DNA of 31,574 nucleotides from a virus. Within the stretch, counting starts at the first letter, position 1. The number at the start of each line of letters is the position of its first letter. The DNA is taken from positions 1-31,574 of the IMG/VR virus record IMGVR_UViG_3300023174_003203, one strand, 5' to 3'. A program made the translations under genes and the position numbers. The notes beneath the pieces were generated by a model that saw nothing but the letters and a program-made list of their open reading frames with translations, was not told the origin of the DNA and did not search any database. Shown here piece after piece: positions 4,673-21,445 of the stretch.

Positions 4673-5743
4673 ATGAGTGACTTTTTAAAGAATATGATTC
4701 GTGCATCGGGTAATGAGTTTGCCTCACTTGCAGAGGATGGAGTTGAGGGAGATGTTACAGGATTTGTGAATACAGGTTCCTATTCTCTCAATGCTCTACT
4801 TTCAGGTTCTCTGAACGGTGGAATTGCCAACAATAAGATTCTTGGTATCGCAGGCGAGAGTGCCACAGGCAAGACTTATTTTGCTCTTGGTATTGCAGCA
4901 CAGTTCTTGGCTGACAATCCTGAAGGTGCGATTCTTTACTTTGATTCCGAACAGGCTGTCACTAGCGATATGATTAAGTCACGAGGTCTTGATCCTAATC
5001 GTGTAGCAGTATTTCCTGTTGCTACCGTTGAAACTTTCCGTCATCAGTTGCTGCAAATCATTGACAACTACGGCAAGTTGGACGAGAAGAAGCGTAAGCC
5101 TTTCTTTGTTGTTCTTGATTCGCTAGGCATGTTGAGCACCTCCAAGGAAACCAACGATACCCTTGAAGGTAAGGAAGTGCGAGACATGACTCGCGCTCAA
5201 GTCATCAAGGGAACCTTCCGCGTTCTCACCATGAAGTTGGGTCTTTACAATATTCCAATGGTTATGACCAATCATACCTACGATGTGGTGGGTGCGTATG
5301 TTCCAACCAAGGAGATGGGTGGCGGTACGGGACTCAAGTATGCAGCATCTACCATTGTGTATCTCTCCAAGAAGAAGCACAAGGTTGACGATGAGATTGT
5401 TGGTAATATCATTCATTGCAAACTGTACAAGGGTCGTCTAACCCGAGAGAACAAGATGGTGGATGTTCTTCTGACCTTTGATAAGGGACTTGATCGCTAC
5501 TACGGTTTGGTTGATCTTGCTCTCAAGCAGGGAGTCTTCAAGAAGGTTTCCACAAAGATTGAATTGCCTAACGGCACTACCGCTTTTGAAAGTCAGATTG
5601 TTAAGAACCCAACCAAGTTCTTTACTCCTGAAGTGATGTCGGCTTTGGAAGCCGCTGCTGCCAAAGAATTCAAGTATGGTTCTGATATGACGGAAAGCGA
5701 GGCAACCAATGAATCCACGGAAACCATTGAAGCGGAAGGATGA
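4673..5743 (+). CDS. uvsX: UvsX, RecA-like recombinase
   Basis: A 356-residue RecA-fold ATPase. The Walker A motif is GESATGKT (61-68), a canonical GxxxxGKT. YFDSEQA (89-95) carries the acid corresponding to the RecA catalytic glutamate. The Walker B strand is FFVVLDS (144-150), followed by MVMTNHTYD in the position of the RecA switch segment. The protein ends in an acidic tail (TESEATNESTETIEAEG), as in many T4-type UvsX proteins. It forms filaments on single-stranded DNA for recombination-dependent replication and repair. GGAG 8 nt upstream and the strong promoter at 4624-4652 define the start. In T4-like phages the helicase gene is often close; here the glycan island separates them. Confidence 0.93.
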   Translation: MSDFLKNMIRASGNEFASLAEDGVEGDVTGFVNTGSYSLNALLSGSLNGGIANNKILGIAGESATGKTYFALGIAAQFLADNPEGAILYFDSEQAVTSDMIKSRGLDPNRVAVFPVATVETFRHQLLQIIDNYGKLDEKKRKPFFVVLDSLGMLSTSKETNDTLEGKEVRDMTRAQVIKGTFRVLTMKLGLYNIPMVMTNHTYDVVGAYVPTKEMGGGTGLKYAASTIVYLSKKKHKVDDEIVGNIIHCKLYKGRLTRENKMVDVLLTFDKGLDRYYGLVDLALKQGVFKKVSTKIELPNGTTAFESQIVKNPTKFFTPEVMSALEAAAAKEFKYGSDMTESEATNESTETIEAEG

Positions 5744-6008: not shown

Positions 6009-6678
6009 GTTACCAAGCAGATCGCGTCCGGCTAAGTTCATGGAGGTGTTCAATCTCTACAAGAATATGGCATCCGGCAAGCACGATGTTCGGTTTTTGT
6101 GCTCGTTTGATCTTGACGATGCCACCATGAATAATGCAGGTATGCGTAACTGGATTGCCAAGCAAGGTGATTCTGTTAAGGCGTTTTGGGGCAATTCAAA
6201 AACTAAGATACAAGCCATCAATGCTGATTTGGAACACGCAGGCGATTACGATGTTCTCCTGCTTGCATCAGATGACATGATTCCTCAGATGCAAGGATAC
6301 GATGATATCATCATGCAGGATATGCAGACCTACTATCCTGATGGCGATGGTGTGCTTCACTACAACGATGGCAAGCAAGGCGAGCGTTTGAATACTCTTT
6401 GCATTTTCGGCAAGAAGTATTTTGACCGTTTTGGTTATATCTACAATCCTGAATACATCAGCGTATTCCCCGACAACGAGTTCACGGATGTCAGCAGGAT
6501 TCTAGGAAAAGCAACTTACATTGACAAGGTTATCATTCGTCACTTTTGGATAGAGATTGGTGTGGATGCTCTATACATGCGTAACGAGAACCGCGAACTC
6601 TACGCCCGTGACGGTGCGTTATATCAACAAAGAAAGGCAGCAAACTTCGGTTTGTCACAACATGCCAACGCCTCCTAA
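5989..6678 (+). CDS. Glycosyltransferase-like protein (GT-A fold)
   Basis: A 229-residue protein that begins the glycan island. LLIKLPSRSRPAKFMEVFN (4-22) resembles the start of GT2-type nucleotide-binding domains. KTKIQAINADLEHAGDYDVL (71-90) followed by LLASDDMIPQ, with SDD at 94-96 in the DxD position, fits a metal and nucleotide-sugar binding site. RFGYIYNPEY and DNEFTDV further on resemble the acceptor-side region. A GGAGG site about 10 nt upstream supports the start despite the 20-nt overlap with the preceding gene. The N-terminal half of the fusion at 7263-8846 is a clear paralog. Donor and acceptor sugars are unknown. Confidence 0.75.
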   Translation: MAKLLIKLPSRSRPAKFMEVFNLYKNMASGKHDVRFLCSFDLDDATMNNAGMRNWIAKQGDSVKAFWGNSKTKIQAINADLEHAGDYDVLLLASDDMIPQMQGYDDIIMQDMQTYYPDGDGVLHYNDGKQGERLNTLCIFGKKYFDRFGYIYNPEYISVFPDNEFTDVSRILGKATYIDKVIIRHFWIEIGVDALYMRNENRELYARDGALYQQRKAANFGLSQHANAS

Positions 6679-7276
6679 TGAAATCTTACTCAGCGTTCTG
6701 ATTCTTTCAATTCCTTCTCGTCTTGAGAAGTGTTTGATTCCAACCTACAATCGTTTGTTGGAGCAGATTGGAAACGAGACTTGTGTTGAGGTTCTAACTC
6801 TTGTAGACAACAAGAGCATGAGCATCGGCGAAAAGCGTCAGGCTTTGATTCAATCGGCTAGAGGCAAGTGGATTGCCTTTTTGGATGATGATGATGCGGT
6901 ATCTGAAGATTACATCTCAACCCTGATTGAAACCTTGAGAACTAAGCCTGCGGATGTGATTACCTTTGAACAGCATTGTTCAGTAAATGGCAAGGAGTTC
7001 AAGGTTAATTTCCGTATGGGTAATCCCCACGAAGGACTTAAGCAGAATCCTGATGGAAGTCTAGGCGATATTAAGCGTCCTCCGTATCATATGTGTGTAT
7101 GGGCAACAAAGATCGCAAAGAATATTCCATTTCGTGCTGTTTCATACGGAGAAGATATTGATTGGTGTATGAGAATGTATCCGTTTGTGACAAGCGAGAC
7201 TCACCTAGATAAAGTACTTCACTACTATCAATATGATGACAGAACATCGGAAAGTATACAATATGCAAAGCGATAA
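6662..7276 (+). CDS. Family 2 glycosyltransferase
   Basis: The frame is open from 6557, but the family-like sequence begins at the ATG at 6662 (MPTPPNEILLSVLILSIPSR), which overlaps the previous gene by only 17 nt, so I choose that start (204 residues). EVLTLVDNKSMSIGEKRQAL (43-62) and KWIAFLDDDDAVSEDYI (69-85) are the classic GT2 sequence with the DxD-type motif at 75-78. YGEDIDWCMRMYP near the end matches the ED region that carries the catalytic base in GT2 enzymes. There is no strong Shine-Dalgarno, so translation probably depends on the upstream gene. Substrates are unknown. Confidence 0.82.
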   Translation: MPTPPNEILLSVLILSIPSRLEKCLIPTYNRLLEQIGNETCVEVLTLVDNKSMSIGEKRQALIQSARGKWIAFLDDDDAVSEDYISTLIETLRTKPADVITFEQHCSVNGKEFKVNFRMGNPHEGLKQNPDGSLGDIKRPPYHMCVWATKIAKNIPFRAVSYGEDIDWCMRMYPFVTSETHLDKVLHYYQYDDRTSESIQYAKR

Positions 7277-8846
7277 GAAGCATCTTCTTTTAAAGTATCC
7301 AACTCGTCAGCGTCCATCCAAGTTCATGGCGAACTTGAATTCTTACCTTGAGAAATTGTCAGGTAAACATCAGTTAACTTTAGTTGTAAGTATGGATACT
7401 GATGATATACTGTGCAACAACGGTGCTATACAAAGATTCCTAGACATCAAGAGAAGTGACACGGTTAATGTAATTTACTCTTACGGGGAAAGTAAGGGTA
7501 AAATTGCTGCCATCAATCGTGATATCCCAAACACTCCTTGGGATATTCTTGTAGCCACAGCCGATGATATGGAACCTGTTAGTGATGGTTGGGATGATAT
7601 TATAGTTCAAGATATGATGCGTGAGTTTTCTGATCTGAATGGAGCGTTGAACTACAATAATGATCCAAGGCTAGAGGAAAAGGGCAAAGAAGGATTTAAG
7701 ACTCTGATTACCCTACCCGTCATTGGACGCAAGTTGTATGACCGTTTTGGGTACATCTATCACCCTGCATACAAGTCAGAATGGTGTGACAATGAGCAGA
7801 CCGAGGTTTTTGAAAAGTTGGGAGTACTTCGTCATATTGATCGCAGACCTATCGTCCACAAGTGGGACGAAAATCAGGATGCACTGATGCAGCGCAATAT
7901 GCAAATTGGAATTACCGTAGACCGTGATACCTACACTAAAAGAAAAGGATTGGGGTTTGACGGTGTTATTGCGTCTTCGGATACCAAAATGAATGGTGTT
8001 GTACAGATTGTTCGTACAAGAGATGAACTATACCTAATTAAGGAGATGCTACCTATTTGGCAAAAGTATGCAGATGCTTTTATCTTTATGGATGATTGTT
8101 CAATTGATGGTACTGATAAATTCTTAACCGAAAACGCTGCAAAATTCAATATCCTTAAGGTGATGCGTGTTGACAGAGTTGAGGGTGAAGAATTACCTAT
8201 AGAGTCGGAGTATCGTCAACAACTTTACGACGAAGCACTTAAGTATTCCCACAAAATCATTTGTTTGGATTCCGATGAGTATCTTGACGGTACTATGAAT
8301 AAGCAGCAGTTTAATGAAATGCTCGATGCAAATCCCGATACGCTGTTCTATACTCAATGGATACAGTACACAGGCAAGAATGAAATTAGAGTTGATGGCA
8401 AATGGGCAGGACATCCCGTAGATAGGGTGGGGTCTTATGCCAATCGCGCAACCTTTAAGACTAGGCAAATGCACGCAGAGCATCTACCTATGCCCACAAA
8501 ATATACAAATATCAACTATCCTCATTTATTTGTTGCACATCTTCAATGGTTGGACAAAAAGTTTGTGGCAACAAAGCAATATTACTATAAGATAGAAGAC
8601 TATGTAAATCGCCTGAAGTTCAATGCTGATGTTATAGTGCCAGTTGAATATGACAAATCTGTAGATTGGAATAATTGGAAATGCGTGTCTTTTAACTTTC
8701 CTCTGAAGATTCGTGCGAATATCTATGGAGACCGCGATATAACACAAACGCACAAGTATAAGTTTATGAAAGAACAGATTAAGAAACACAACATCCCCAA
8801 TTTAAATGATTGGGGTATGGGAATACACAATCAATTCGTAGATTGA
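7263..8846 (+). CDS. Two-domain glycosyltransferase fusion
   Basis: The frame begins at 7233; I prefer the ATG at 7263 with GGAAAG upstream and a 14-nt overlap (527 residues). Residues 1-235 are a paralog of the 5989-6678 protein: both have LxKxPxRxRPxKFM, INxD, an A/SDDM motif (here ADD at 100-102), and DRFGYIY(N/H)P. Residues from about 243 form a second glycosyltransferase-like domain: VVQIVRTRDELYLIKEMLP, then FMDDCSIDGTDKFL (about 274-287) and CLDSDEYLDG (about 333-342), as in proteins annotated as glycosyltransferase family 2 or GT92-like. The two domains could add successive sugars. Donors and acceptors are not evident. Confidence 0.78.
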   Translation: MQSDKKHLLLKYPTRQRPSKFMANLNSYLEKLSGKHQLTLVVSMDTDDILCNNGAIQRFLDIKRSDTVNVIYSYGESKGKIAAINRDIPNTPWDILVATADDMEPVSDGWDDIIVQDMMREFSDLNGALNYNNDPRLEEKGKEGFKTLITLPVIGRKLYDRFGYIYHPAYKSEWCDNEQTEVFEKLGVLRHIDRRPIVHKWDENQDALMQRNMQIGITVDRDTYTKRKGLGFDGVIASSDTKMNGVVQIVRTRDELYLIKEMLPIWQKYADAFIFMDDCSIDGTDKFLTENAAKFNILKVMRVDRVEGEELPIESEYRQQLYDEALKYSHKIICLDSDEYLDGTMNKQQFNEMLDANPDTLFYTQWIQYTGKNEIRVDGKWAGHPVDRVGSYANRATFKTRQMHAEHLPMPTKYTNINYPHLFVAHLQWLDKKFVATKQYYYKIEDYVNRLKFNADVIVPVEYDKSVDWNNWKCVSFNFPLKIRANIYGDRDITQTHKYKFMKEQIKKHNIPNLNDWGMGIHNQFVD

Positions 8847-8864: not shown

Positions 8865-10625
8865 ATGAAAGTTAGCGATGCTATTGTTGATATTCTACTG
8901 AGACACAATATCAAGGTTGTTTTTGGTATTATTGGCTCTGCCAATTCTCATATTTTTAATTCACTTATTAACCATCCTGAGATTAAAGTTGTTCCTGTTC
9001 ATCACGAACAAGTTGCTGTAATGGCAGCAGGAGCATACTATAGAGTCACAGGAAAATTGGAAGCGGTTGCTTTAGTTACCGCTGGTGGTGGTTCTTCAAA
9101 TGCGTTTACAGGAATTCTTTCCAATTGGGCAGATTCAATCCCAAGCGTAATCATTTCAGGACAAGAACAATCGTATTACATCAATGAATACGATGGAATG
9201 AGAATGTATGGGATTCAGGGATATGATTCCGTTACCACATATAAAACACATACCAAATTATCAGAGCGGGTAACTAATACAAATGTTTGTTCTCTATTTG
9301 AGACCGCCTTCAGAGTGGCACAAGAAGGTCGTCCTGGTCCAGTTTTCTTGGAAGTACCTTTTGATGTACAGTATCAAAACACAGAAGTGTCGATAGACTG
9401 TGATATATCAGAGCGTTCTGTGGAAGTAACAACATCTAATACCGATGTAGACTATATTATTGATCGCTTAAACAATGCATCAAGACCTGTGATTCTCGGT
9501 GGTCATGGAGTAAAGTTGTCGAACTCTGAAGACTTGTTCAAAAAGTTTGTTGCAAAGCACAACATACCAACACTTCTTACTTGGTCTGCGGTTGATCTAT
9601 TAGAGACTAGCAACAGCAACAACTTTGGTAGACCTGGAGTTCAGGGTCAACGAGCAGCAAACTTTATAACGCAGAATAGTGACTTACTTATTGTTATGGG
9701 AAGCAGGTTATCTCTATTGCAAACTGGATATTCAAGGAAAGACTTTGCTCCCCACGCACATATCATTCATATTGATATAGATCCATCAGAAACCAAGAAA
9801 TTCAATGGAAAGAATATCAATACGGATATATCCGTTATTCTGAAAGAACTATTGACTCGTTCATCAGACATTCATGTAAATGCGGATAATTGGCGAAACT
9901 ATTGCATTAAAATTCGTGATCGTTACCCAATAGTAATGCCTGAACATTTAAACGATCCAACAAACTCATACACCTTTATGGATTGGTTTTCCAATAAAGT
10001 ACCAGACAACTATACTATTGTTACGGATATGGGAACTGCATTACTAAGTGGTTTTTATGGATTTAACCTCAAACCAAATCAAAAAATGTTTACTTCTCTT
10101 GGATTGGGAGAGATGGGATATGGAATTGCAGCGGCAGTAGGTGCAGGATGTGCAGGTAAGCCTGTTATGTGTTTGAATTGTGATGGAGGCATGATGCTTA
10201 ATCTACAAGAGTTGCAAACTATCAAAACACAGGATCTTCCTGTAAAGATTGTTATCTTTAATAATGATGGATATCTGATGATTAAGCACACACAAAACTT
10301 GCTATTTGGTGGAATAAAAACTTGCGTAGATAAGAAAACTGGAGTAGAATTACCTGACTACAAGAAGGTAGCAGATGCATTTGGATATGAATATTATACG
10401 GTAGAGTCTATTGATTCATTCTTTACTTCAGCAAAGCAGTCAATATTGGAGATATTCATGTCGCCAGATCAAGAATTTATACCAAAGGTAAGAGGAATTA
10501 AGAACATAGACAATACAATTCAGTCGGGATTGTTAGAAGAACTATCTCCGTTCTTGCCGCTCAACGAAATTAAGGATGCTATGATTTCCGGTATAAATGA
10601 ACGAAGCCTAGGTATACAGAGATGA
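8865..10625 (+). CDS. Thiamine diphosphate-dependent enzyme, acetolactate synthase-like
   Basis: The 586 residues match the three-domain ThDP family of acetolactate synthase and its relatives. The N-terminal pyrimidine-binding domain has the conserved catalytic glutamate E48 in VHHEQVAVMAAGAYYR. The C-terminal domain has the ThDP/magnesium motif NCDGGMMLNLQELQT (D440) ending in FNNDGYLM. Such enzymes decarboxylate a 2-keto acid and transfer the two-carbon unit; sugar-branching members such as YerE of yersiniose synthesis use pyruvate. An AAGGA site lies just upstream of the ATG. The stop overlaps the dehydrogenase start (ATGA at 10622-10625), tying it to the aldolase/dehydrogenase pair. The exact substrate cannot be read from sequence. 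Confidence 0.88.
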   Translation: MKVSDAIVDILLRHNIKVVFGIIGSANSHIFNSLINHPEIKVVPVHHEQVAVMAAGAYYRVTGKLEAVALVTAGGGSSNAFTGILSNWADSIPSVIISGQEQSYYINEYDGMRMYGIQGYDSVTTYKTHTKLSERVTNTNVCSLFETAFRVAQEGRPGPVFLEVPFDVQYQNTEVSIDCDISERSVEVTTSNTDVDYIIDRLNNASRPVILGGHGVKLSNSEDLFKKFVAKHNIPTLLTWSAVDLLETSNSNNFGRPGVQGQRAANFITQNSDLLIVMGSRLSLLQTGYSRKDFAPHAHIIHIDIDPSETKKFNGKNINTDISVILKELLTRSSDIHVNADNWRNYCIKIRDRYPIVMPEHLNDPTNSYTFMDWFSNKVPDNYTIVTDMGTALLSGFYGFNLKPNQKMFTSLGLGEMGYGIAAAVGAGCAGKPVMCLNCDGGMMLNLQELQTIKTQDLPVKIVIFNNDGYLMIKHTQNLLFGGIKTCVDKKTGVELPDYKKVADAFGYEYYTVESIDSFFTSAKQSILEIFMSPDQEFIPKVRGIKNIDNTIQSGLLEELSPFLPLNEIKDAMISGINERSLGIQR

Positions 10626-11506
10626 AAAAACTGAAAGTAGCAATTCTCGGAACAGGAAACATAGGAACAGATTTGTTATTGAAGTCGCTGAAGAAGGACT
10701 TTATCCAAGTTGTTGCTTTTGTTGGTAGAAGATTAAATTCCCCTACGATTAAAATTGCAGTTGATAGAGGGATAACCGTATCAGATAGGGGTATATGGTA
10801 TTTCATCGATAATCCAAATACTTGTGATGTTGTGTTTGATTGTACAAATGCAATTGATGCTTTAGAACACTCATCCGTATTTCGTCAGCAAGGCATACGA
10901 GTTATAGATCTTACCCCTTCCAAAGTAGGAAAACTATGCGTACCTGATATCAATGGTGATCTTATCTTGAATACGGACAACATCAACATGATAACCTGCG
11001 GAGGGCAAACTTCTATTCCTATGCTACGGTTGTTATCAAATCGTTGTAGCGGGATAGAGTATATTGAAGTTGTTTCGCAGATTTCATCAAAGAGTGCAGG
11101 AATGGCAACCCGAATAAACATCGATGAGTACATCAGAACTACTAGGGACGCAATTACACAGTTTACAGGATGCGGTAGCACTAAGGTCATTTTAAATTTA
11201 AATCCAGCGGAACCCTGCGTTGATATGCAAACAACAATGTTTATTAAAACTAAGCATATCAATGATAGCAATTTGACAGAAGAAATTGCCGACAAGATAG
11301 AGGAGTTAAAAACATACATTCCTCACTACGAAATGGTTCTTTCACCCACAATAAATGAAAACGGAGTATTGGTTTTGAGTATTCGTGTAAGGGGATCAGG
11401 AGATTATCTTCCAGAGTATGCAGGAAATCTTGATATTATAAACTGTGCCGCAATAAAATCAACAGAGAATCTGTGGGGAGCCATCAATGAAAATCACAAT
11501 AACTGA
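10622..11506 (+). CDS. Acetaldehyde dehydrogenase (acylating), DmpF/MhpF type
   Basis: The 294 residues follow the DmpF/MhpF family closely. There is an N-terminal NAD-binding loop (AILGTGNIGTDLLL, 7-20), the catalytic cysteine C126 in NMITCGGQTSIPM, then INIDEYIRTTRDAI, LNLNPAEPC and, near the end, YLPEYAGNLDII. The reaction in the family is acetaldehyde plus CoA plus NAD+ to acetyl-CoA and NADH. Family members form a channelling complex with the aldolase encoded by the next gene (DmpFG, BphJI). The start overlaps the ThDP enzyme stop by 4 nt and the end overlaps the aldolase by 20 nt. In bacteria the pair normally serves aromatic meta-cleavage; its place in a phage glycan island is unusual. 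Confidence 0.88.
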   Translation: MKKLKVAILGTGNIGTDLLLKSLKKDFIQVVAFVGRRLNSPTIKIAVDRGITVSDRGIWYFIDNPNTCDVVFDCTNAIDALEHSSVFRQQGIRVIDLTPSKVGKLCVPDINGDLILNTDNINMITCGGQTSIPMLRLLSNRCSGIEYIEVVSQISSKSAGMATRINIDEYIRTTRDAITQFTGCGSTKVILNLNPAEPCVDMQTTMFIKTKHINDSNLTEEIADKIEELKTYIPHYEMVLSPTINENGVLVLSIRVRGSGDYLPEYAGNLDIINCAAIKSTENLWGAINENHNN

Positions 11507-12485
11507 CTCCAGCCTACGAGATGGAAATCATAGCGTAAAGCATACTATTAGTCTTGATAGTATTGAACGATATTGTAGATTTGCAGACAAGGCAGGAATC
11601 CCAATCGTGGAGGTCGGACATGGTAATGGATTGGCGGCATCTTCTTTACTGATTGGAAAGGCAGTAAACAGCGACAAAGAGATGCTGTCTGTTGCTCGTA
11701 AATCTTTGAAAACCTCAAAACTAGGAATCCACAGCATTCCTGGATTATCTACTCTTGATGACATCAAGATGGCATTGGATTGTGGCGTTGATGTTGTCAG
11801 AGTTGCTACCCATTGCACCGAGGCAACCTTATCAAAGTCTCACATAGAGTGCCTATCAAAAGCAGGAAATATAGTATTTGGCGTTTTGATGATGAGTGCA
11901 TTGATAGATTCAGATACATTGACAGAACAGGCAAAGATCATGCAGGATTATGGAGCAAACGCGGTGATCGTGATGGATTCTACAGGATCGTATTTACCAG
12001 ACGATGTAGAAGAAAGAATCACCAAACTCAAAAACAGCCTAAAAATCGGTGTAGGGTTTCATGCCCATAACAATTTAGGTTGTGCAGTTGCAAACAGCCT
12101 TAAGGCAGCAGAGTGTGGTGCTGAGTTTATTGATGTGTGTATTCGTGGTTTTGGTGCAGGTGCAGGAAACGCACCACTTGAGATTATGATTCCTGTGATG
12201 GAGCAGAGCGGATTTCAAATGGGAATAGACTTTAAGGAGACCATCAAAGAAGCAGATAGAGTCATGTCATATCTTGTGCCTTCGCAGCCTATTTCTGCGC
12301 CCATCAACATACTCACGGGCTTAAAGAAACTGTTTAGTGGGTTTGAGAAACCAATAATTTCAGCATCTCAACTTCATGGGATTGAATACTCATCCCTAAT
12401 TTTTGAACTCGGTAACAGAAAGTTGGTTGCAGGTCAAGAGGATTTGATTCTAGAAGTAGCGCAAACTCTAAAGAACAAACGATAA
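11487..12485 (+). CDS. 4-Hydroxy-2-oxovalerate aldolase, DmpG/MhpE type
   Basis: The 332 residues have the DRE-TIM aldolase signature LRDGNH with R11, D12 and H15, equivalent to BphI R16, D17 and H20. EVGHGNGL (42-49), VATHCTEA (106-113) and the metal ligands H192 and H194 in GFHAHNN follow, then GAGAGNAPLEIM (223-234). The family makes pyruvate plus an aldehyde from 4-hydroxy-2-oxo acids, or the reverse aldol addition. GGGGAG upstream of the ATG supports the start despite the 20-nt overlap with the dehydrogenase. The terminal TAA shares its last base with the next ATG. Retained catalytic residues imply an active enzyme; its phage substrate could be a sugar-derived aldehyde (inference). Confidence 0.88.
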   Translation: MKITITDSSLRDGNHSVKHTISLDSIERYCRFADKAGIPIVEVGHGNGLAASSLLIGKAVNSDKEMLSVARKSLKTSKLGIHSIPGLSTLDDIKMALDCGVDVVRVATHCTEATLSKSHIECLSKAGNIVFGVLMMSALIDSDTLTEQAKIMQDYGANAVIVMDSTGSYLPDDVEERITKLKNSLKIGVGFHAHNNLGCAVANSLKAAECGAEFIDVCIRGFGAGAGNAPLEIMIPVMEQSGFQMGIDFKETIKEADRVMSYLVPSQPISAPINILTGLKKLFSGFEKPIISASQLHGIEYSSLIFELGNRKLVAGQEDLILEVAQTLKNKR

Positions 12486-13402
12486 TGAAGATACTGATAA
12501 CGGGCGGAAATGGATTTTTAGGTTCAACTCTATCCAAGCATCTATTGATGCAAGGGCATGATGTCTGCATTTCCTCTAGAAACTCTTGCAGAATACAGGA
12601 TATCTTGGAGCGAGTTACTTTCTTTCAGACATCAGATTTATGCATTACTCACACAGAAGAACTGATTCGTTTCTGTCCGAACATAGTGATTGATTGTGCA
12701 TGGAATGGTGGCAATAACTATAGTCAAGTCAATTCTTTAGACCAGTTTAGATTGAACATGGATAGGAGTATTGATTTACTTGAAACCACAAAGAAGATGG
12801 AGAAGAAACCTATGTTTATAGGGTTTGGATCGTTTGCAGAATACGGAATGATACGAACAAGAGCAGAAGAGCATCAAACAGAAACGCCTGTAACTTTCTA
12901 TGGATTGGCAAAGACATCAGTTAAAGAGATGTCAAGACTATTTTGTGAACAGAATGATATCAAATGGACATGGATACGACCTTGTTACATTTATGGGCCA
13001 AATGATGTTCCAACTCGCCTAATACCAAAAGTGATCCATCATTTGCTCAACAAGCAGCCTTTAGTTCTCAATAATTGCAATACTACAATTGATTATCTTC
13101 ATGTATACGATTTCTGTACCGCAATTTCTGCACTCATTGAAACCCAAAAGACTGGAGTGTTCAACATCTGTTCTGGCAACGAATACAGACTTCTTGATGT
13201 AATATCAATGATTCAAACAGAATTGGGATTAGGAGAAATCTCTTACGATGAATCATTTTCTAGAGACTATTCTCCAAAATACATTTGCGGTTCTAATCGC
13301 AAAATTAAACAAGAAACAGGATGGAATTCTACTATAGATTTGCATCAAGGCATTATAGATACAATCTGTAAGACTAATCTATTATATGAAAGAAAGGATT
13401 AA
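12485..13402 (+). CDS. NAD(P)-dependent sugar epimerase/dehydratase/reductase (extended SDR)
   Basis: A 305-residue extended short-chain dehydrogenase. The Rossmann dinucleotide loop is GGNGFLG (7-13), the catalytic pair is in FYGLAK (Y139, K143), and RPCYIYGPNDV plus TIDYLHVYDFC match the substrate-binding half of nucleotide-sugar epimerases and reductases. The one-base overlap with the aldolase stop (TAATG) puts it in the same operon as the ThDP, dehydrogenase and aldolase genes. A reductase acting on the branched product of the ThDP enzyme, as YerF does in yersiniose synthesis, is one possibility; sequence alone does not separate epimerase from reductase. Confidence 0.85.
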   Translation: MKILITGGNGFLGSTLSKHLLMQGHDVCISSRNSCRIQDILERVTFFQTSDLCITHTEELIRFCPNIVIDCAWNGGNNYSQVNSLDQFRLNMDRSIDLLETTKKMEKKPMFIGFGSFAEYGMIRTRAEEHQTETPVTFYGLAKTSVKEMSRLFCEQNDIKWTWIRPCYIYGPNDVPTRLIPKVIHHLLNKQPLVLNNCNTTIDYLHVYDFCTAISALIETQKTGVFNICSGNEYRLLDVISMIQTELGLGEISYDESFSRDYSPKYICGSNRKIKQETGWNSTIDLHQGIIDTICKTNLLYERKD

Positions 13403-13403
13403 T

Positions 13404-14057
13404 ATGACTATCAAAGATTTAGTAACTGTTACTCCCGAAGGATTAATTTGGCCTATCAATGGAGATGTAACTTATAACTGGCTATCACAGGAAACCAAAG
13501 AGCAAGGTGGGCATCTATCTGTACTTTCAAAGTACCTAAAGAAAACGAATGTAATGATTCAGGCTGGCGGAAATTGCGGCTTAACCCTCATTCCATTCAT
13601 GGACACATTTGACCAAATCTATACCTTTGAGCCAGATCCACTAAATTTTTACTGCTTGGTTAACAATCTTCCCAAGAAAAATGTATATAAGATTCAGGGC
13701 TGCTTGGGGGAAGACAATAGAATGGTAGATATTGTCAATCCTGCCACTAATAACGATGTTGGTGCATTTCATATCAACTCTCTAGGTGGAGCAATACCAA
13801 AGTTCAAGATAGACGATCTTCAGTTGGAACAATGTGATTTGATTATGTTGGACATTGAGGGATACGAATACAACGCATTAATGGGCGGCATTCAGACAAT
13901 AGCAAAATATAGACCTGTGGTGTGTGTAGAGTGTTACTGGTTGCCTAGATTTGGGGCCTCTACGCAACACATTGACACCCTTCTAGCACGATTTGGATAT
14001 AAGTATGTCGAGTCATATTTTCAAGATAGAATTTATGTCTCTGAAGCCAACGATTGA
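13404..14057 (+). CDS. FkbM-family methyltransferase
   Basis: The frame is open from 13386, but the ATG at 13404 has AAGGA in front and avoids overlap, giving 217 residues. SAM-binding motif I appears as MIQAGGNCGLTLIPF (51-65), then YTFEPDPLNFYCL (73-85) and LIMLDIEGYEYNALMGG (143-159), the order typical of FkbM proteins. These O-methylate sugars or secondary metabolites and are common in polysaccharide clusters. Here it could methylate a sugar of the glycan made by the surrounding genes. The acceptor is not identifiable. Confidence 0.85.
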   Translation: MTIKDLVTVTPEGLIWPINGDVTYNWLSQETKEQGGHLSVLSKYLKKTNVMIQAGGNCGLTLIPFMDTFDQIYTFEPDPLNFYCLVNNLPKKNVYKIQGCLGEDNRMVDIVNPATNNDVGAFHINSLGGAIPKFKIDDLQLEQCDLIMLDIEGYEYNALMGGIQTIAKYRPVVCVECYWLPRFGASTQHIDTLLARFGYKYVESYFQDRIYVSEAND

Positions 14058-14073: not shown

Positions 14074-14811
14074 ATGTCAGAAACTTTTGGCAGCAAAATA
14101 TTATTAATGACGGGCGTTTCTGATATTCTTCCTCCGAAGACTAATGATGTGTCAATGGAGGAAGTATTCAAATTGACTCTACCATCAAAGCAAAGGTATG
14201 CCGAAAAGCACGGATATGATCTTCTGACGATGAGATCTTTTGGCAGCGGCAAGGAATACGGGTTTAAGGATACGAATGTAGGATTACTTCGTATGGTACG
14301 AGCATTTGAGATGCTGAAGCATTACGATATTGTGATGTGGATAGATGCAGATGCAATTATAACAAACGATAAATTTACAATAAAAGACTCATTTAATCTG
14401 AATCAAGATCATTGCTTTTATGCGTCATACGAGTGGGCTGAATGGTGCGTACCTCATCAGACATTTAGTACAGGCAATTTTATACTTCAGCGAACTAAAG
14501 ATACCGAAACTTTATTCTCTACTTTTCTTGAAGTAGGCAAGAATCACATTGAAGGGTTTGGTGAGGAACAAAACGCAATGAACTGGATCTACAAAAACAC
14601 TAATCTAGTAAGTATAATGAAGATTCTTGACCATCTATATCTAAACGCAGTTCCTTACGCTATGTACATGGATAGGATAAGATGTTATAATGACATACAT
14701 CAGAAAATATACAGTCCGTGGAAAGATACTGATTTCTTAGCACATATTGGCGGTCTTCCAAACAAGAACAGAATAAACATACTGAACACGCATTTTAAGA
14801 ATTACTTGTAA
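14074..14811 (+). CDS. Glycosyltransferase resembling the GT34 (GMA12/MNN10) group
   Basis: The 245-residue protein has KQRYAEKHGYDLLTM (39-53), then LLRMVRAFEMLKHYDIVMWI with DAD at 91-93. That combination (a K..YA..HGY element before WIDADAI) marks galactosyl or mannosyl transferases of the GT34 type. HQTFSTGNFILQR and GFGEEQNAMN further on match the middle of this group, and HIGGLPNKNR lies close to the end. The gene begins 16 nt after the FkbM methyltransferase stop with no clear strong ribosome binding site. The transferred sugar is not known. Confidence 0.75.
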   Translation: MSETFGSKILLMTGVSDILPPKTNDVSMEEVFKLTLPSKQRYAEKHGYDLLTMRSFGSGKEYGFKDTNVGLLRMVRAFEMLKHYDIVMWIDADAIITNDKFTIKDSFNLNQDHCFYASYEWAEWCVPHQTFSTGNFILQRTKDTETLFSTFLEVGKNHIEGFGEEQNAMNWIYKNTNLVSIMKILDHLYLNAVPYAMYMDRIRCYNDIHQKIYSPWKDTDFLAHIGGLPNKNRINILNTHFKNYL

Positions 14812-14830
14812 AACATATCACGAGGAACCA

Positions 14831-15625
14831 ATGACATTACCTTCTTATAGCATCACAATTCAAACCTATGTTCATCGTTTTGAACCATATTTCAAGCCGC
14901 TATTGGCTAGAGTACACAAGCAAAGACCAAACATCGAGAAATTGGTTTTTGTCAATGGGCAACATAAAGAAAAGTTTGATGACGGATATCGCAGAGAAAT
15001 ACTGCAATATGCATCGTACTTTTCAAACACTTTTCTGCTGATGTCTCCGATTGTGCGCGGATGTGCGTTCATGTGGAACAACTCAATAAATTATACTAGT
15101 AGTGAATATGTGTTAGTCTTGAGTGATGATGTAATTATTCTTGATGGATTTTTTGACGAGTTTGAAGCCATGCTTGCAAAGAATCACGAACTAGGGGACG
15201 AGTCATTCCGAATTAATTATCATTGGGGGCATTTCTGCATCTATAGGCAGGATGTTCTTGACAAGGACAACAGGGTTGGTTATTTTGATGAGCGTTTGAT
15301 TGGATTTGGAGAAGAAGATGGCGATTGGATGTGGAGGTATCAGGATCGCTACAATAGACACATGAGAAACTACCTCACAGACAAGTTGCCATACAACACA
15401 GATGAAAAATGCTTGCCAGGAAAAAATACAAGGACTCATAGCGATACAAAATACAGCGCATTTAACCGCGAATTCATGGGAACAAAATTAGAACACGATC
15501 CAACTGGTACTAATGACGGGTGCGGTATATCCAGAGGATTTGCATTAAAATTGAAACCGGGAATGCAAACACCTAATTTCTATCCTGGTGAAAATTGGTA
15601 TAGAGAAAACATTGATAAACTATGA
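14831..15625 (+). CDS. Family 2-like glycosyltransferase
   Basis: A 264-residue GT-A type protein: SYSITIQTYVHRFEPYF (5-21), VFVNGQHKEKFDDG, then YVLVLSDDVIILDGFF (93-108) with the metal-binding acids at 99-100, and FGEEDGDWMWRY (about 162-173) in the region of the catalytic base. CGISRGFALKLKPG follows. GAGG lies about 8 nt before the ATG. The stop overlaps the next start by 4 nt (ATGA at 15622-15625). Donor and acceptor are unknown. Confidence 0.75.
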   Translation: MTLPSYSITIQTYVHRFEPYFKPLLARVHKQRPNIEKLVFVNGQHKEKFDDGYRREILQYASYFSNTFLLMSPIVRGCAFMWNNSINYTSSEYVLVLSDDVIILDGFFDEFEAMLAKNHELGDESFRINYHWGHFCIYRQDVLDKDNRVGYFDERLIGFGEEDGDWMWRYQDRYNRHMRNYLTDKLPYNTDEKCLPGKNTRTHSDTKYSAFNREFMGTKLEHDPTGTNDGCGISRGFALKLKPGMQTPNFYPGENWYRENIDKL

Positions 15626-16449
15626 TATCAGTTTATGGTTCAACTGGATTTATTGGTAGTCGATACACAAAAATGTATTCGGACATTACTATGCCCATAA
15701 CGAGATCCGAAGATGCCCCTCAAAGCAAAGATATATTATATTTCATTAGTACTACGCACAACTACCACATTTTCGATGACCCGCATAGAGACATCGAAAC
15801 GAATCTGAATAAGTTGATATCTGTTCTTGAGGCTAGCAGGAAATCCTACTTCAAAGACATTACTTTTAACTTCATAAGTTCATGGTTTGTTTATGGCAAA
15901 AACTGCTCTCTTAATACTAGGGAAACCGATCTGTGCGACCCTACAGGATTCTATTCAATCACAAAAAGAGCAGCAGAACAAATGCTGATATGTTATTGTC
16001 AGACCATGAATATGAACTATAGAATTCTTCGTCTTACAAACATTATAGGTGAATCCGACAATAGAGCATCTGCAAAGAAGAACGCATTACAGTACATGAT
16101 AGGGCTTCTTAAAAGAAACGAAACGGTGAAGATATATGACGGCGGATCTAATATTAGAGACTTCATGTATGTGGATGAGGCGTGTAGAGCAATAAATGCT
16201 TGTATGCATAATGCCCCCACAGGACAGATAGTCAACATAAGCAATACGCAGCCAATAACAATAGGTGAAGTCATTCGATATTGCAAGAAGAAGTTGGGTT
16301 CATCGTCAGAAATAGTATCAATTGATGCTCCTGATTTTCATAAAGTGGTTCAAGTGAAAGATGTTTGCTTGAATAGTGATAAACTTCGTTCTTATGGCTA
16401 TCAATCAAGCATAGATACATGGCAAGCCGTAGACAGACTTCTTAGGTAA
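15622..16449 (+). CDS. NAD-dependent epimerase/dehydratase-like SDR
   Basis: A 275-residue extended SDR with the cofactor loop GSTGFIG (6-12), catalytic FYSITKRAAEQ (Y111, K115), LRLTNIIGESD and VKIYDGGSNIRDFMYVDEAC in the substrate domain. It is somewhat shorter than the usual 300-340 residues, with little between the cofactor loop and the first helix. It is most similar in style to nucleotide-sugar epimerases and reductases. The start overlaps the upstream glycosyltransferase (ATGA). It may supply or finish the activated sugar used by its neighbours (inference). Confidence 0.8.
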   Translation: MISVYGSTGFIGSRYTKMYSDITMPITRSEDAPQSKDILYFISTTHNYHIFDDPHRDIETNLNKLISVLEASRKSYFKDITFNFISSWFVYGKNCSLNTRETDLCDPTGFYSITKRAAEQMLICYCQTMNMNYRILRLTNIIGESDNRASAKKNALQYMIGLLKRNETVKIYDGGSNIRDFMYVDEACRAINACMHNAPTGQIVNISNTQPITIGEVIRYCKKKLGSSSEIVSIDAPDFHKVVQVKDVCLNSDKLRSYGYQSSIDTWQAVDRLLR

Positions 16450-16463
16450 TTGAAAGGTATATT

Positions 16464-17357
16464 ATGAACATAGTTACAACAGGCGGTAGAGGTTTTATTG
16501 GTAGTCACTTTGTAGAGAAGGCATTAGAGAACGGTCATTTTGTGGTCGATATAGACTGCATGAGTTACTGCTCCCGCGAATCTCTGCCATTCGATTCGCA
16601 TCCAAATTACAAGCATCAGAAGATGGATATATGCGAAGTAAAGCATCTACCTTCTTGTGATGTTGTTGTGAATTTTGCAGCAGAAACCCATGTTGATAAC
16701 TCCATTAATGACACAAATCCGTTCATGCACAGCAATGTGATTGGAGTCCATAATTTGCTAGAGATCATTCGCGGAAAGCAAACCCATGAGCGACCTCTTT
16801 TCATTCAGATAAGCACCGATGAAGTTTACGGAGATCGTGCTCATGGTGGGTTTACTGAAACTGATAGACTCACACCAAGCAATCCGTACTCCGCATCAAA
16901 GGCAGCAGCAGAGATGTTCGTGCTGTCCTATCATCGTACATACGGACTGAACTATTTGATTACTCGCAGTTCCAACAACTACGGACCACGACAGTATTAC
17001 GAAAAACTGATCCCCAAGACATTAAAGTGTATTGACACAAACAAGAAGATTCCTCTGCACGGAGATGGTTCTTATGTCCGAGACTGGATTTATGTAAAGG
17101 ACAATGTTGATGCCATATACTCCCTGATTGAATCAGGTGTCAAGAATGATGTGTTCAATATTGGAGCAAACAATCACCTTACCAACCTTGATGTGGTTAC
17201 TGATCTTCTACATTCGTTTGGAAAAGAAACCGATCAGATTCAGTTTGTATCTAATCGTTGGGGTCAGGATTTGCGGTATTCTCTTGATACATCCAAGATC
17301 AATTCCTTGGGTTGGACACCAAAGCATACGAAAGGTATATTCAAGTGGTGGAACTAA
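16464..17357 (+). CDS. dTDP-glucose 4,6-dehydratase-like enzyme (RmlB family)
   Basis: 297 residues, shorter than the about 350 of RmlB. GGRGFIG (7-13) binds NAD. NFAAETHVDNSI (70-81), STDEVYGD (117-124) with the acid pair D119-E120 used in dehydration, and NPYSASKAAAE (140-150) with Y142 and K146 are all RmlB hallmarks, as is RSSNNYGPRQYYEKLIP. The enzyme converts an NDP-glucose to the 4-keto-6-deoxy form. STDE rather than the TSDK seen in CDP-glucose 4,6-dehydratases favours the RmlB branch, yet the nucleotide is not certain. GAAAGG lies upstream of the ATG. The product would feed the RfbH-like gene that overlaps its 3' end. Confidence 0.85.
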   Translation: MNIVTTGGRGFIGSHFVEKALENGHFVVDIDCMSYCSRESLPFDSHPNYKHQKMDICEVKHLPSCDVVVNFAAETHVDNSINDTNPFMHSNVIGVHNLLEIIRGKQTHERPLFIQISTDEVYGDRAHGGFTETDRLTPSNPYSASKAAAEMFVLSYHRTYGLNYLITRSSNNYGPRQYYEKLIPKTLKCIDTNKKIPLHGDGSYVRDWIYVKDNVDAIYSLIESGVKNDVFNIGANNHLTNLDVVTDLLHSFGKETDQIQFVSNRWGQDLRYSLDTSKINSLGWTPKHTKGIFKWWN

Positions 17358-18685
17358 AAATACATGATGCCGACAAGAAGGCTATGCTTGAACAACTCGT
17401 CACCGAACTCGTGGCTTCCAAGAAGAAGCCTTGGGTTGCAGGGCAAGATTGGGTTCAGTATGCTGGTTCGTATTTGGACGAGAAAGAGTATATTGCAGCA
17501 ATAGGATGTTTGCTTGACGGTTGGTTTGCATTGGGAGAGAATGGGATTCGGTTTGAGAACAAGTTTCCGCAGAGACTCGGAAAGGATCACGGTTGCCTTT
17601 CAAATAGTGGTTCTAGTGCAAACTTGCTTATGGTGTCTTCTCTGACATCCCGTAAACTACATTTTCTTCCCAAGGGGTCTAAAATCATCACTCCCGTTGC
17701 AGGATTTCCTACAACAATAAACCCAATTATACAGAATGGGTTTGTGCCTGTCTTTATTGATATTGAACTTGATACGCTGAATCTGAATATTGAACAGTTG
17801 GAAGCAGCGGCAAAGGCTGGTGCATCTGCTTTGATTTTTGCCCATGTTTTGGGAAATCCTCCAAATATGGATGCAGTCATGGACATTGTGAAGCGATATA
17901 ATCTCATCCTGTTGGAAGACTGTTGTGATGCTCTTGGCAGCACCTACAAGGGAAAGCCACTAGGATCATTTGGTGAGATGGCTACTTGTTCGTTCTATCC
18001 TGCACACCATATGACTATGGGAGAGGGTGGATTTGTTGCTACTCGTACCAAAGAGCAAGAAATGGTAGTAAAGAGTATGAGGGAGTGGGGTCGTGGCTGC
18101 TATTGCTCGGGAAAGGCAGCGTCATGCTTGAAGAACGGAATGTGTAAGAAGCGGTTCAGTAATTGGCTTCCCGCTCTTCCTGATGAGGTGTTTGACCACA
18201 AGTATGTGTATGAAGAGATTGGATACAATCTTAAACCACTTGACCTACAGGCTGCTATTGGATTGGTTCAGATGGAGAAACTTGATGCCATCATTCTAAA
18301 GAGAAAGCACAACTATAATCGGTTGATGGAAGTGTTTTCCCGATACGAAGATAAGTTTGTTTTGCCACGAGCAACAGAGGGTGCAGATCCCTCTTGGTTT
18401 GCTTTTCCTGTTACCGTTAAAGATGGAGCAGGATTTAAGAGAACAGAACTAACTATGTTTATGGAAGACAACAAAATACAGACGCGCAACTACTTTGGTG
18501 GAAATATTCTGTTGCAACCGGGATACGCTCACTTGTCTGATGGTGATCCTGTTAAGATGTATCCAAACGCAACCAAGGCAACCACAAATACTTTCTTCTT
18601 TGGAACAAGCCCTGTGATTACAGATGAGCAGTTGGATTATGTTGCTACTGTTGTAGATAAGTTCTTTAGCACTATTTTAGTATGA
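17312..18685 (+). CDS. rfbH: RfbH-like NDP-4-keto-6-deoxyglucose 3-dehydrase (DegT fold, iron-sulfur)
   Basis: 457 residues of the DegT/DnrJ/EryC1 fold. SFYPAHHMTMGEGG (227-240) has histidine (H232) where aminotransferases have the PLP lysine, the signature of E1/RfbH 3-dehydrases. C205, C263 and C265 reproduce the C-x57-C-x-C spacing of the E1 [2Fe-2S] ligands; the fourth is C272 or C278. The family removes the 3-hydroxyl of a 4-keto-6-deoxy sugar using PMP and electrons from a reductase; no reductase is seen here. The ATG at 17312 overlaps the dehydratase by 46 nt. GTG codons at 17345/17348, preceded by a GAAAGGTATATT that also lies before 16464, and an ATG at 17384 are alternative starts. 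Confidence 0.88.
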   Translation: MDTKAYERYIQVVELKIHDADKKAMLEQLVTELVASKKKPWVAGQDWVQYAGSYLDEKEYIAAIGCLLDGWFALGENGIRFENKFPQRLGKDHGCLSNSGSSANLLMVSSLTSRKLHFLPKGSKIITPVAGFPTTINPIIQNGFVPVFIDIELDTLNLNIEQLEAAAKAGASALIFAHVLGNPPNMDAVMDIVKRYNLILLEDCCDALGSTYKGKPLGSFGEMATCSFYPAHHMTMGEGGFVATRTKEQEMVVKSMREWGRGCYCSGKAASCLKNGMCKKRFSNWLPALPDEVFDHKYVYEEIGYNLKPLDLQAAIGLVQMEKLDAIILKRKHNYNRLMEVFSRYEDKFVLPRATEGADPSWFAFPVTVKDGAGFKRTELTMFMEDNKIQTRNYFGGNILLQPGYAHLSDGDPVKMYPNATKATTNTFFFGTSPVITDEQLDYVATVVDKFFSTILV

Positions 18686-19611
18686 AGGCATTGATTACTG
18701 GAGCGGCAGGGTTTATTGGGTCAAATCTAGTTGACCATCTGATTGGTATTGGTTGGGATGTTGTTGGTATAGACAATGAATCTAGTCTGGCTCACGATCA
18801 ATTCTACTACAATCCAAAGGCTTCATATGTTCCCAAAGAAGAAGCAGACATTTCTACAGAAAAGCCGTGGAAATCACTAGCCAAAGAAAAGTTTGATTAT
18901 GTGTTTCACATGGGTGCTGAGTGTAGTATTCAGCAATGCATAGAAAATCCTGCCCTGTGTATTTCTACCAATATCTTGGGCACTGTTAACACACTAGACT
19001 ATGCGGCAAAAAATGGAGTTAAAAGATTTGTCATGTCTTCCACATCATCTGTGTATTCTGGTTGTGATTACATGGCGGATGAAAATGAAGAGCCTATTTG
19101 TATAAATCCATATTCTTCAACTAAACTTTCGGGAGAAGTTTTCTGTAAGCAGTATAGTATGACAACAGAGTTGGATACTGTTATTCTTAGATACTTTAAT
19201 GTATATGGAGAGCGACACACTGTTCGTGGATCGTATGCTCCCGTAATAGGAGTCTTTCAGCGTCAACTAAAAGACAACTCTGCATTTACAATAGTTGGTG
19301 ATGGTGAACAGAGAAGAGACTTCGTTCATGTTTTGGATGTTGCTAAAGCAAATGTTCTAGCCGCTCAAAATTCCATAATAAACAATCGGTTAAACGCTGA
19401 AGTTTTTAATATTGGAACTGGGGTTAATTATTCGGTAAATGAAGTGGCTGATCTAATTTCCACAAAAAATACTAGAGTTAATCTTCCTTCTCGTTCAGGT
19501 GAGGCGAGAATAACACTATGCGATTATCGTAAGGCACGCGATTGGCTTGGTTGGAGCCCAAGTATTAAACTTTCAGATTGGATAGTTTCTGTTGACAACA
19601 TGCTAATTTGA
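18682..19611 (+). CDS. Nucleotide-sugar 4-epimerase-like SDR
   Basis: 309 residues with GAAGFIGSNLVDHL (7-20), VFHMGAECSIQQCIENP (74-90), MSSTSSVYSG (118-127), NPYSSTKLSGE (142-152, Y144 and K148), LRYFNVYGERH and DGEQRRDFVHVLDVA. The pattern fits UDP-glucose and UDP-N-acetylglucosamine 4-epimerases (GalE/WbpP-like). The start overlaps the RfbH-like stop by 4 nt (ATGA). It is the last gene of the glycan island; the gp41 promoter -35 box (19592) lies inside its final codons. Confidence 0.82.
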   Translation: MKALITGAAGFIGSNLVDHLIGIGWDVVGIDNESSLAHDQFYYNPKASYVPKEEADISTEKPWKSLAKEKFDYVFHMGAECSIQQCIENPALCISTNILGTVNTLDYAAKNGVKRFVMSSTSSVYSGCDYMADENEEPICINPYSSTKLSGEVFCKQYSMTTELDTVILRYFNVYGERHTVRGSYAPVIGVFQRQLKDNSAFTIVGDGEQRRDFVHVLDVAKANVLAAQNSIINNRLNAEVFNIGTGVNYSVNEVADLISTKNTRVNLPSRSGEARITLCDYRKARDWLGWSPSIKLSDWIVSVDNMLI

Positions 19612-21337: not shown

Positions 21338-21411
21338 GGGAGTGGGGGGTCTTTGGTTGGCCCAGATCGGTTTATACCCGGTTGGAACAGGTTCGAATCC
21401 TGGCACTCCTA
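21338..21411 (+). tRNA. Probable tRNA-Ile, anticodon UAU
   Basis: A 74-nt cloverleaf can be drawn by hand. Acceptor stem 21338-21344 with 21404-21410 (7 pairs, first G-U); D stem GGGT with GCCC around a loop containing GG; anticodon stem ATCGG/CCGGT (21366-21370 and 21378-21382) enclosing TTTATAC, so the anticodon is TAT (21373-21375); T arm with loop TTCGAAT (21392-21398) and one mismatch at the outer T-stem pair; discriminator A at 21411. CCA is not encoded. Weak points are G instead of U at position 8, an extra base near position 26 and the T-stem mismatch. UAU would read the AUA isoleucine codon. Confidence 0.65.
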
Positions 21412-21445
21412 CTAGATACTAACAACACTTTAAAGGAGATACACA

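Follow-up and report, generated by a model that had tools for sequence, protein, structure and literature searches.

What would a virus do with a dehydrogenase-aldolase pair of the kind known from aromatic degradation, when the pair sits among sugar genes? The question is raised by three adjoining genes (positions 8,865 to 12,485) of the IMG/VR virus record IMGVR_UViG_3300023174_003203, analysed here over its whole length of 31,574 bases (the window). They encode a thiamine diphosphate (ThDP)-dependent enzyme, a DmpF-type acylating acetaldehyde dehydrogenase and a DmpG-type 4-hydroxy-2-oxoacid aldolase. The three open reading frames (ORFs) of the original prediction were confirmed at their positions, all on the + strand, and Pfam and NCBIfam searches place them in the families it had named. 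The window is a fragment of a T4-like virus, with T4-like replication genes (a family B DNA polymerase, a DnaB-type helicase and a primase); the polymerase, gp43, is ~50% identical to those of Synechococcus T4-like phages. Our analysis suggests that the trio is probably a self-contained donor-and-transfer module for a ten-carbon (C10), 4-C-branched deoxy sugar of the erwiniose type.

In the window, the ThDP and DmpF genes overlap by 4 bases, DmpF and DmpG by 20, and DmpG and a following short-chain dehydrogenase/reductase (SDR) gene by 1, in agreement with the overlap and coupling described earlier. The order ThDP-DmpF-DmpG on one strand was found in 38 of the 39 viral contigs that encode this DmpG, the 39th (L037) beginning inside the gene, and an independent viral scan with the ThDP protein returned 23 loci, every one on a contig already among the 39. 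The neighbourhood is therefore not random (a random one would have counted against the original prediction); likewise, DmpF and/or DmpG were present at 17/22 bacterial ThDP loci. All 31 parsed non-identical viral copies share the 4-base ThDP/DmpF overlap. A dehydratase with a TDEVY motif overlaps the ThDP gene by 7 bases in 27/31 parsed viral records (it lies 206 bases off in L004 and is missing at that place from L001, L034 and L036), and an ORF whose glycine-rich start is of SDR type lies 3' of DmpG in 29/31 (L034 has no SDR-type ORF within 400 bases of DmpG, and the L039 record ends there). The T4 major capsid family Gp23 was detected in 4 of the 20 viral records searched, all four 131-162 kb long; it was not found in one 136-kb record, and the remaining records without it are shorter fragments. 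A blastn search against isolated phages gave no close relative. By tblastn, DmpG matched 6 phage records (at most 36.9%, the top one being a Salmonella draft) and the ThDP protein 45, all below 60% and at 27-30% among the 15 matches listed.

By sequence and predicted fold, the ThDP protein is a JanthE/YerE-like carboligase. JanthE was the top match in a PDB sequence search (8rph, 450 bits; second match, 256), with 41% identity over 579 columns, and its chains were the top fold matches of the AlphaFold model (mean predicted local distance difference test score, pLDDT, 79.9). The catalytic Glu (E48) is kept, as are JanthE Y297 and K567. As described, the YerE-like JanthE joins alpha-keto acids to ketones and carries a rare CDG motif (PMC12188165). 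This motif was present in 31/31 viral rows and 21/23 bacterial rows of the JanthE side of the ThDP tree (1 Thr, 1 gap) and in 0/16 rows of the GDG side. The tree (71 non-identical rows, the short row L083 and the distant L085 being left out) parts the 16-row GDG side from the 55-row JanthE side with 100/100 support. The latter consists of JanthE, 49 rows with DmpFG and 5 without, three of which lie at contig ends (L070, L079 and L081, the last showing a DmpG tail); the GDG side has 15 rows without DmpFG and 1 with it. The JanthE residues said to hold flavin adenine dinucleotide (Y268 and P293) are Q and L in the window, and Y and P are kept in 11/31 viral rows; we did not take these positions as defining, because GDG-side rows vary there too. 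Acetolactate synthase was rejected as the identity of this enzyme: the best such NCBIfam model scored 312 against a cut-off of 738, and the nearest structure is JanthE.

The DmpF protein passes TIGR03215 (306.1, cut-off 282.25), its model has PheF and DmpF as fold matches, and C126 is invariant in 66 aligned sequences. It differs from catabolic relatives at the cofactor site, where G35-R36-R37 replaces Gly-Ile/Val-Asp. Asp37 is found in every catabolic DmpF compared (7/7 plasmid, 24/24 genome-drawn and all five PDB chains), whereas the residue is Arg in 37/38 viral sequences (1 gap) and Asn in 18 of 19 bacterial ones, the other having Arg; eight of nine ThDP-linked genome loci have Gly-Arg-Asn, and L171 is unaligned there. 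In the predicted structure, strand 2 (residues 28-34) immediately precedes R36-R37. In nucleotide-binding folds, loss of Asp together with gain of Arg at this place usually marks NADP(H) binding. The Asp37 change thus fits a predicted NADPH (reduced nicotinamide adenine dinucleotide phosphate) pocket, which would agree with a reductive, building direction.

A second shift concerns DmpG, which scores 335.1 with TIGR03217 (cut-off 286) and retains its communication domain (DmpG_comm, 53.8 bits vs 27). R11, D12, H15, H192 and H194 correspond to R17, D18, H21, H200 and H202 of 1nvm, and none of the five varies among 69 further sequences; the catalytic residues listed earlier for DmpF and DmpG are thus all kept. 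At the places of Leu87 and Tyr290 in the related aldolase BphI, the window protein has H82 and F283, and the place of BphI Leu89 is still Ile. For this mapping we assume that BphI 87/290 are 1nvm 88/291, offset by one; the Leu and Tyr found there agree. The pair is Leu/Tyr in eight chosen plasmid catabolic DmpGs, and His/Phe in 38/38 viral DmpGs (near-copies included) and 20/21 bacterial sugar-cluster DmpGs, L119 having Phe/Val. A less selected sample gave 36 DmpG loci from 657 drawn genomes (369 + 288). Nine of these loci have a ThDP gene no more than 1.5 kb away; 8 of the nine carry Phe and 1 Val at position 290, and position 87 is occupied by His (6), Phe (2) or Tyr (1). All 24 loci that have DmpF but lack a ThDP gene carry Tyr290, and 23 of them Leu87 (Ile in 1); the 3 without DmpF have Phe/His. 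Tyr290 goes with the absence of a linked ThDP gene at a Fisher p of 2.6e-8, a value that makes no correction for shared ancestry. In the DmpG tree, catabolic members are separated from sugar-cluster members with 99% support in the Shimodaira-Hasegawa approximate likelihood ratio test (SH-aLRT). BphI uses only (4S)-4-hydroxy-2-oxopentanoate; Y290F loses that control, and the double mutants L87N/Y290F and L87W/Y290F accept the (4R) form alone (PMC3962088). Taken as sequence signatures, the DmpF and DmpG shifts and the CDG motif fit a builder role, unlike catabolic DmpFG.

Other DmpFG settings were also seen. At two loci from the Verrucomicrobial phylum, L119 and L176, DmpFG accompanies ThDP enzymes that do not follow the clear CDG/JanthE pattern, so the association is not confined to the CDG clade. 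A Paraburkholderia phenoliruptrix plasmid (L085:11108-16321) encodes a DmpF-DmpG pair with His/Phe and Gly-Arg-Asp, with a distant ThDP protein near and no sugar genes annotated near the pair. A Streptomyces plasmid (L086:7099-11663) has DmpFG (Phe/Phe) beside ketoacyl synthase III (KAS III), an acyl carrier protein and a CoA ester lyase, which is another setting outside aromatic breakdown.

Two cluster partners absent from the original prediction bear on the acceptor sugar: an RfbH-type 3-dehydrase and a 4,6-dehydratase. The former passes NF011936 (479.1 bits, cut-off 423); its ORF was listed from a TTG at 17312, a GTG at 17345 or 17348 being the likelier start. A His that we take to replace the pyridoxal phosphate (PLP)-binding lysine is kept in 49/49 aligned 3-dehydrases. 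RfbH homologues of ~41% identity occur in T4-like cyanophages, one annotated as CDP-4-dehydro-6-deoxy-D-glucose 3-dehydratase (CDP, cytidine diphosphate). The viral dehydratases match the deoxythymidine diphosphate (dTDP)-glucose 4,6-dehydratase model TIGR01181 best, yet stay below its cut-off of 365.1 (window 328.5, four relatives 293.9-306.7). On these sequence matches, 3,6-dideoxy-4-keto chemistry in the phage cluster is well supported, and the sugar nucleotide may be dTDP. A CDP route inside the phage was considered and rejected: neither RfbF nor RfbG (CDP-glucose 4,6-dehydratase) was over its cut-off in any of 14 viral records searched, so we did not file the cassette as a CDP pathway, the window being a fragment.

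Bacterial context came from one scan of genome contigs with the ThDP protein (22 loci), and RfbF, RfbG and RfbH occurred together at 12 of them. The Marinomonas pontica locus (L080) runs RfbF, RfbG, RfbH, DmpF, DmpG, SDR, ThDP, SDR, with the first five all over their NCBIfam cut-offs. A Flavobacteriaceae contig from a metagenome-assembled genome (L063) reads RfbF-RfbG-RfbH-ThDP-DmpF-DmpG, the trio being in phage order; its DmpG lies inside the viral clade and its ThDP protein among viral rows, which points to an exchange of genes with Bacteroidota or to a viral contig that was binned with them. L084, a 25% match, is probably unrelated in function. At E<=1e-110, the ThDP protein had matches in 6/369, 53/288 and 2/395 drawn genomes (most of the 53 at 33-42% identity), showing that it is rare among genomes.

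A pathway can be proposed from these families. The 4,6-dehydratase and the RfbH-type 3-dehydrase would yield a nucleoside diphosphate (NDP)-4-keto-3,6-dideoxyhexose. DmpF, working reductively, would convert acetyl-coenzyme A (acetyl-CoA) and NAD(P)H into acetaldehyde and pass it to DmpG, which would join it to pyruvate to give 4-hydroxy-2-oxopentanoate, an activity of the family for which the direction and a 4R configuration are predicted here. By the chemistry proven for its family, the ThDP enzyme would then decarboxylate this acid and transfer the resulting C4 acyl anion to the sugar's C4 ketone, leaving a tertiary alcohol, and an SDR would reduce the new ketone; the SDR that follows DmpG is a candidate. 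The product would be an erwiniose-like branched sugar of ten carbons, because six come from the sugar and four are left from 4-hydroxy-2-oxopentanoate. In the full name of erwiniose, as we presume it to be, the carbon matching donor C4 is D, i.e. R, which matches a (4R) donor. The glycosyltransferases and the FkbM methyltransferase of the cluster may place the sugar on a host or virion glycan. JanthE accepts 4-hydroxy-2-oxovalerate (with benzaldehyde) (PMC12188165), and ErwE, which favours 4-hydroxy-2-oxo acids, the pentanoate among them, forms erwiniose from CDP-4-keto-3,6-dideoxyglucose (PMC12247030); erwiniose is a 10-carbon branched sugar (PMC8657720) with its branch at C4 (PMC9912281). 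A fuller version, which we hold tentatively and at somewhat under an even chance, is that T4-like viruses carry a complete C10-sugar cassette working through a dTDP-type keto sugar, in which an NADPH-driven, (4R)-selective DmpFG supplies the ThDP enzyme, and that the bacterial module is the hydroxy-keto acid source for erwiniose-type sugars.

Several observations weigh against a branched-sugar module of this kind. L064 and L065 combine a CDG ThDP enzyme with RfbF-G-H and have no DmpFG within 10 kb; at L064 the enzyme is preceded by what we take to be a split transketolase-like pair, possibly a different donor module. Conversely, DmpFG stands beside other ThDP enzymes at L119 (GDG) and L176 (a 37% match). 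RfbH is over its cut-off in only 13/20 viral records, a Cys set found in 22/25 bacterial 3-dehydrases is present in 15/24 viral ones and lacking from 9/24, and the missing RfbF and RfbG count on the same side. A Marinomonas reductase that we take to be E3-like has no match in any viral locus. The substitutions that inverted BphI selectivity put Asn or Trp, rather than His, at 87 (PMC3962088), and the physiological substrates of JanthE are given as not established (PMC12188165).

The original prediction had left the product between a carbon-branched sugar, made from pyruvate or an aldehyde, and a supply of acetyl-CoA. The former gains support, in a form that would use both pyruvate and an aldehyde, because the carboligase is JanthE/YerE-like, the bacterial neighbours are CDP-3,6-dideoxyhexose genes and RfbH lies in the phage cluster. 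The latter is disfavoured. It would have DmpFG work catabolically, splitting 4-hydroxy-2-oxovalerate so that acetyl-CoA and pyruvate enter phage metabolism, with the ThDP protein as an acetolactate synthase; DmpF and DmpG do exceed the cut-offs of their catabolic families, and general ThDP profiles do name acetolactate synthase. We nevertheless consider it very improbable, because a scan of the window proteins showed nothing that would make 4-hydroxy-2-oxovalerate from aromatics (neither meta-cleavage enzyme nor hydratase, unlike annotated plasmid dmp/mhp operons) and because Asp37, Leu87 and Tyr290 of the catabolic enzymes are all altered. The shortfall against the acetolactate synthase model and the split of the DmpG tree also count against it.

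Two further explanations keep a biosynthetic role and change the branch. The ThDP enzyme could use pyruvate as donor and build a yersiniose-like two-carbon branch, DmpFG making some other product such as an acyl group destined for an amino sugar; pyruvate is what YerE itself uses (PMC12247030), and JanthE also accepts it (PMC12188165). This is unlikely given that DmpFG accompanies 49/54 CDG-side rows (JanthE aside) and is absent from 15/16 GDG-side YerE-like rows, and that the ThDP/DmpF overlap is invariant. Alternatively, the aldehyde reaching DmpG could be one derived from another acyl-CoA rather than acetaldehyde, so that branch length or oxidation state would differ. The uniform viral His at the BphI Leu87 position, which lies near the C4 substituent (PMC3962088), speaks for such a change, but the TIGR03215 and TIGR03217 cut-offs are passed, the BphI Leu89 place is still Ile and erwiniose needs a C4 unit, making this quite unlikely.

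The sugar cluster (Table 1) lies on one strand between a RecA-like gene (4673-5743) and the helicase gene at 19627. Elsewhere, the window encodes a GroES/Cpn10-like protein (75-338), a tRNA-Ile with anticodon TAT (21338-21412) and a 998-aa protein (23563-26559) with cytidylyltransferase-like, RimK-type ATP-grasp and retropepsin-like RloA3 parts.

Table 1. The trio and the other genes of the sugar cluster, in window positions.
Feature	Position	Strand	Details
ThDP-dependent carboligase, JanthE/YerE-like	8865..10625	+	586 aa; Pfam TPP_enzyme_N/M/C; E48; CDG motif C439-D440-G441
DmpF-type acylating acetaldehyde dehydrogenase	10622..11506	+	294 aa; AcetDehyd-dimer + Semialdhyde_dh; TIGR03215; C126; G35-R36-R37
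DmpG-type 4-hydroxy-2-oxoacid aldolase with communication domain	11487..12485	+	332 aa; HMGL-like + DmpG_comm; TIGR03217; H82, F283
SDR (NAD-dependent epimerase/dehydratase family)	12485..13402	+	PF01370
NDP-glucose 4,6-dehydratase, dTDP-glucose (RmlB) type	16464..17357	+	TIGR01181 below cut-off; TDEVY + YSASK motifs
RfbH/AscC-type NDP-4-keto-6-deoxyhexose 3-dehydrase	17345..18685	+	NF011936; His at PLP lysine place
SDR (epimerase/reductase), sugar cluster	18682..19611	+	PF01370; galE-like, low score
SDR paralogue	15622..16449	+	PF01370, from profile position 81 on
FkbM-family methyltransferase	13386..14057	+	PF05050, TIGR01444
Glycosyltransferase 34-like protein	14074..14811	+	PF05637
Probable glycosyltransferase, weak GT2-type match	7233..8846	+	PF13704 below gathering cut-off
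Glycosyltransferase family 2	6557..7276	+	PF00535; ORF listed from TTG, start unsure

If the proposed module is real, sugars of one of the rarest classes are made by viruses themselves, and a channelling complex that textbooks treat as catabolic also serves in biosynthesis. It would also provide a concrete source of the 4-hydroxy-2-oxo acid that longer-branched sugars require and make the physiological substrates of JanthE directly testable. The three-residue signature (DmpF 37; BphI-numbered DmpG 87 and 290) could then help to find genes in sugar clusters and viromes that are wrongly annotated as 'aromatic degradation'.

Bacteria are already known to branch sugars with YerE-like enzymes and to draw on 4-hydroxy-2-oxo acids as donors; the phage cassette and the DmpFG donor module look like a new variation on this, with priority unsettled. 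The open-access literature searched gave no DmpFG in sugar clusters or phages, nor as a donor source, the likeliest subscription papers lying outside that scope; the sole exception in it is a study of a groundwater virome in which 4-hydroxy-2-oxovalerate aldolase is named among the auxiliary genes (PMC13303688). Among 50,697 phage records there was no DmpG relative above 37% and, among the matches listed, no close ThDP relative; in this the window differs from the T4-like cyanophages, which it resembles in gp43 and RfbH. With DmpFG, BphIJ and HsaFG of aromatic and steroid breakdown, the phage pair shares families, catalytic residues, communication domain and F-G gene order, but it lies in a biosynthetic neighbourhood and differs at D37 (R/N) and L87/Y290 (H/F). 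Pathways of the erwiniose/caryophyllose type join a C6 keto sugar to a C4 unit from a 4-hydroxy-2-oxo acid to give a C10 sugar; the phage records differ from them in having an RmlB-type dehydratase and no RfbF over cut-off. Compared with JanthE of Janthinobacterium sp. HH01, the window enzyme differs in the Q/L replacing Y268/P293 and in being virus-encoded. It is otherwise like the JanthE/YerE-like carboligases, ErwE included, in sequence, predicted fold, CDG motif, catalytic Glu, Y297 and K567, and in having RfbH in the same cluster.

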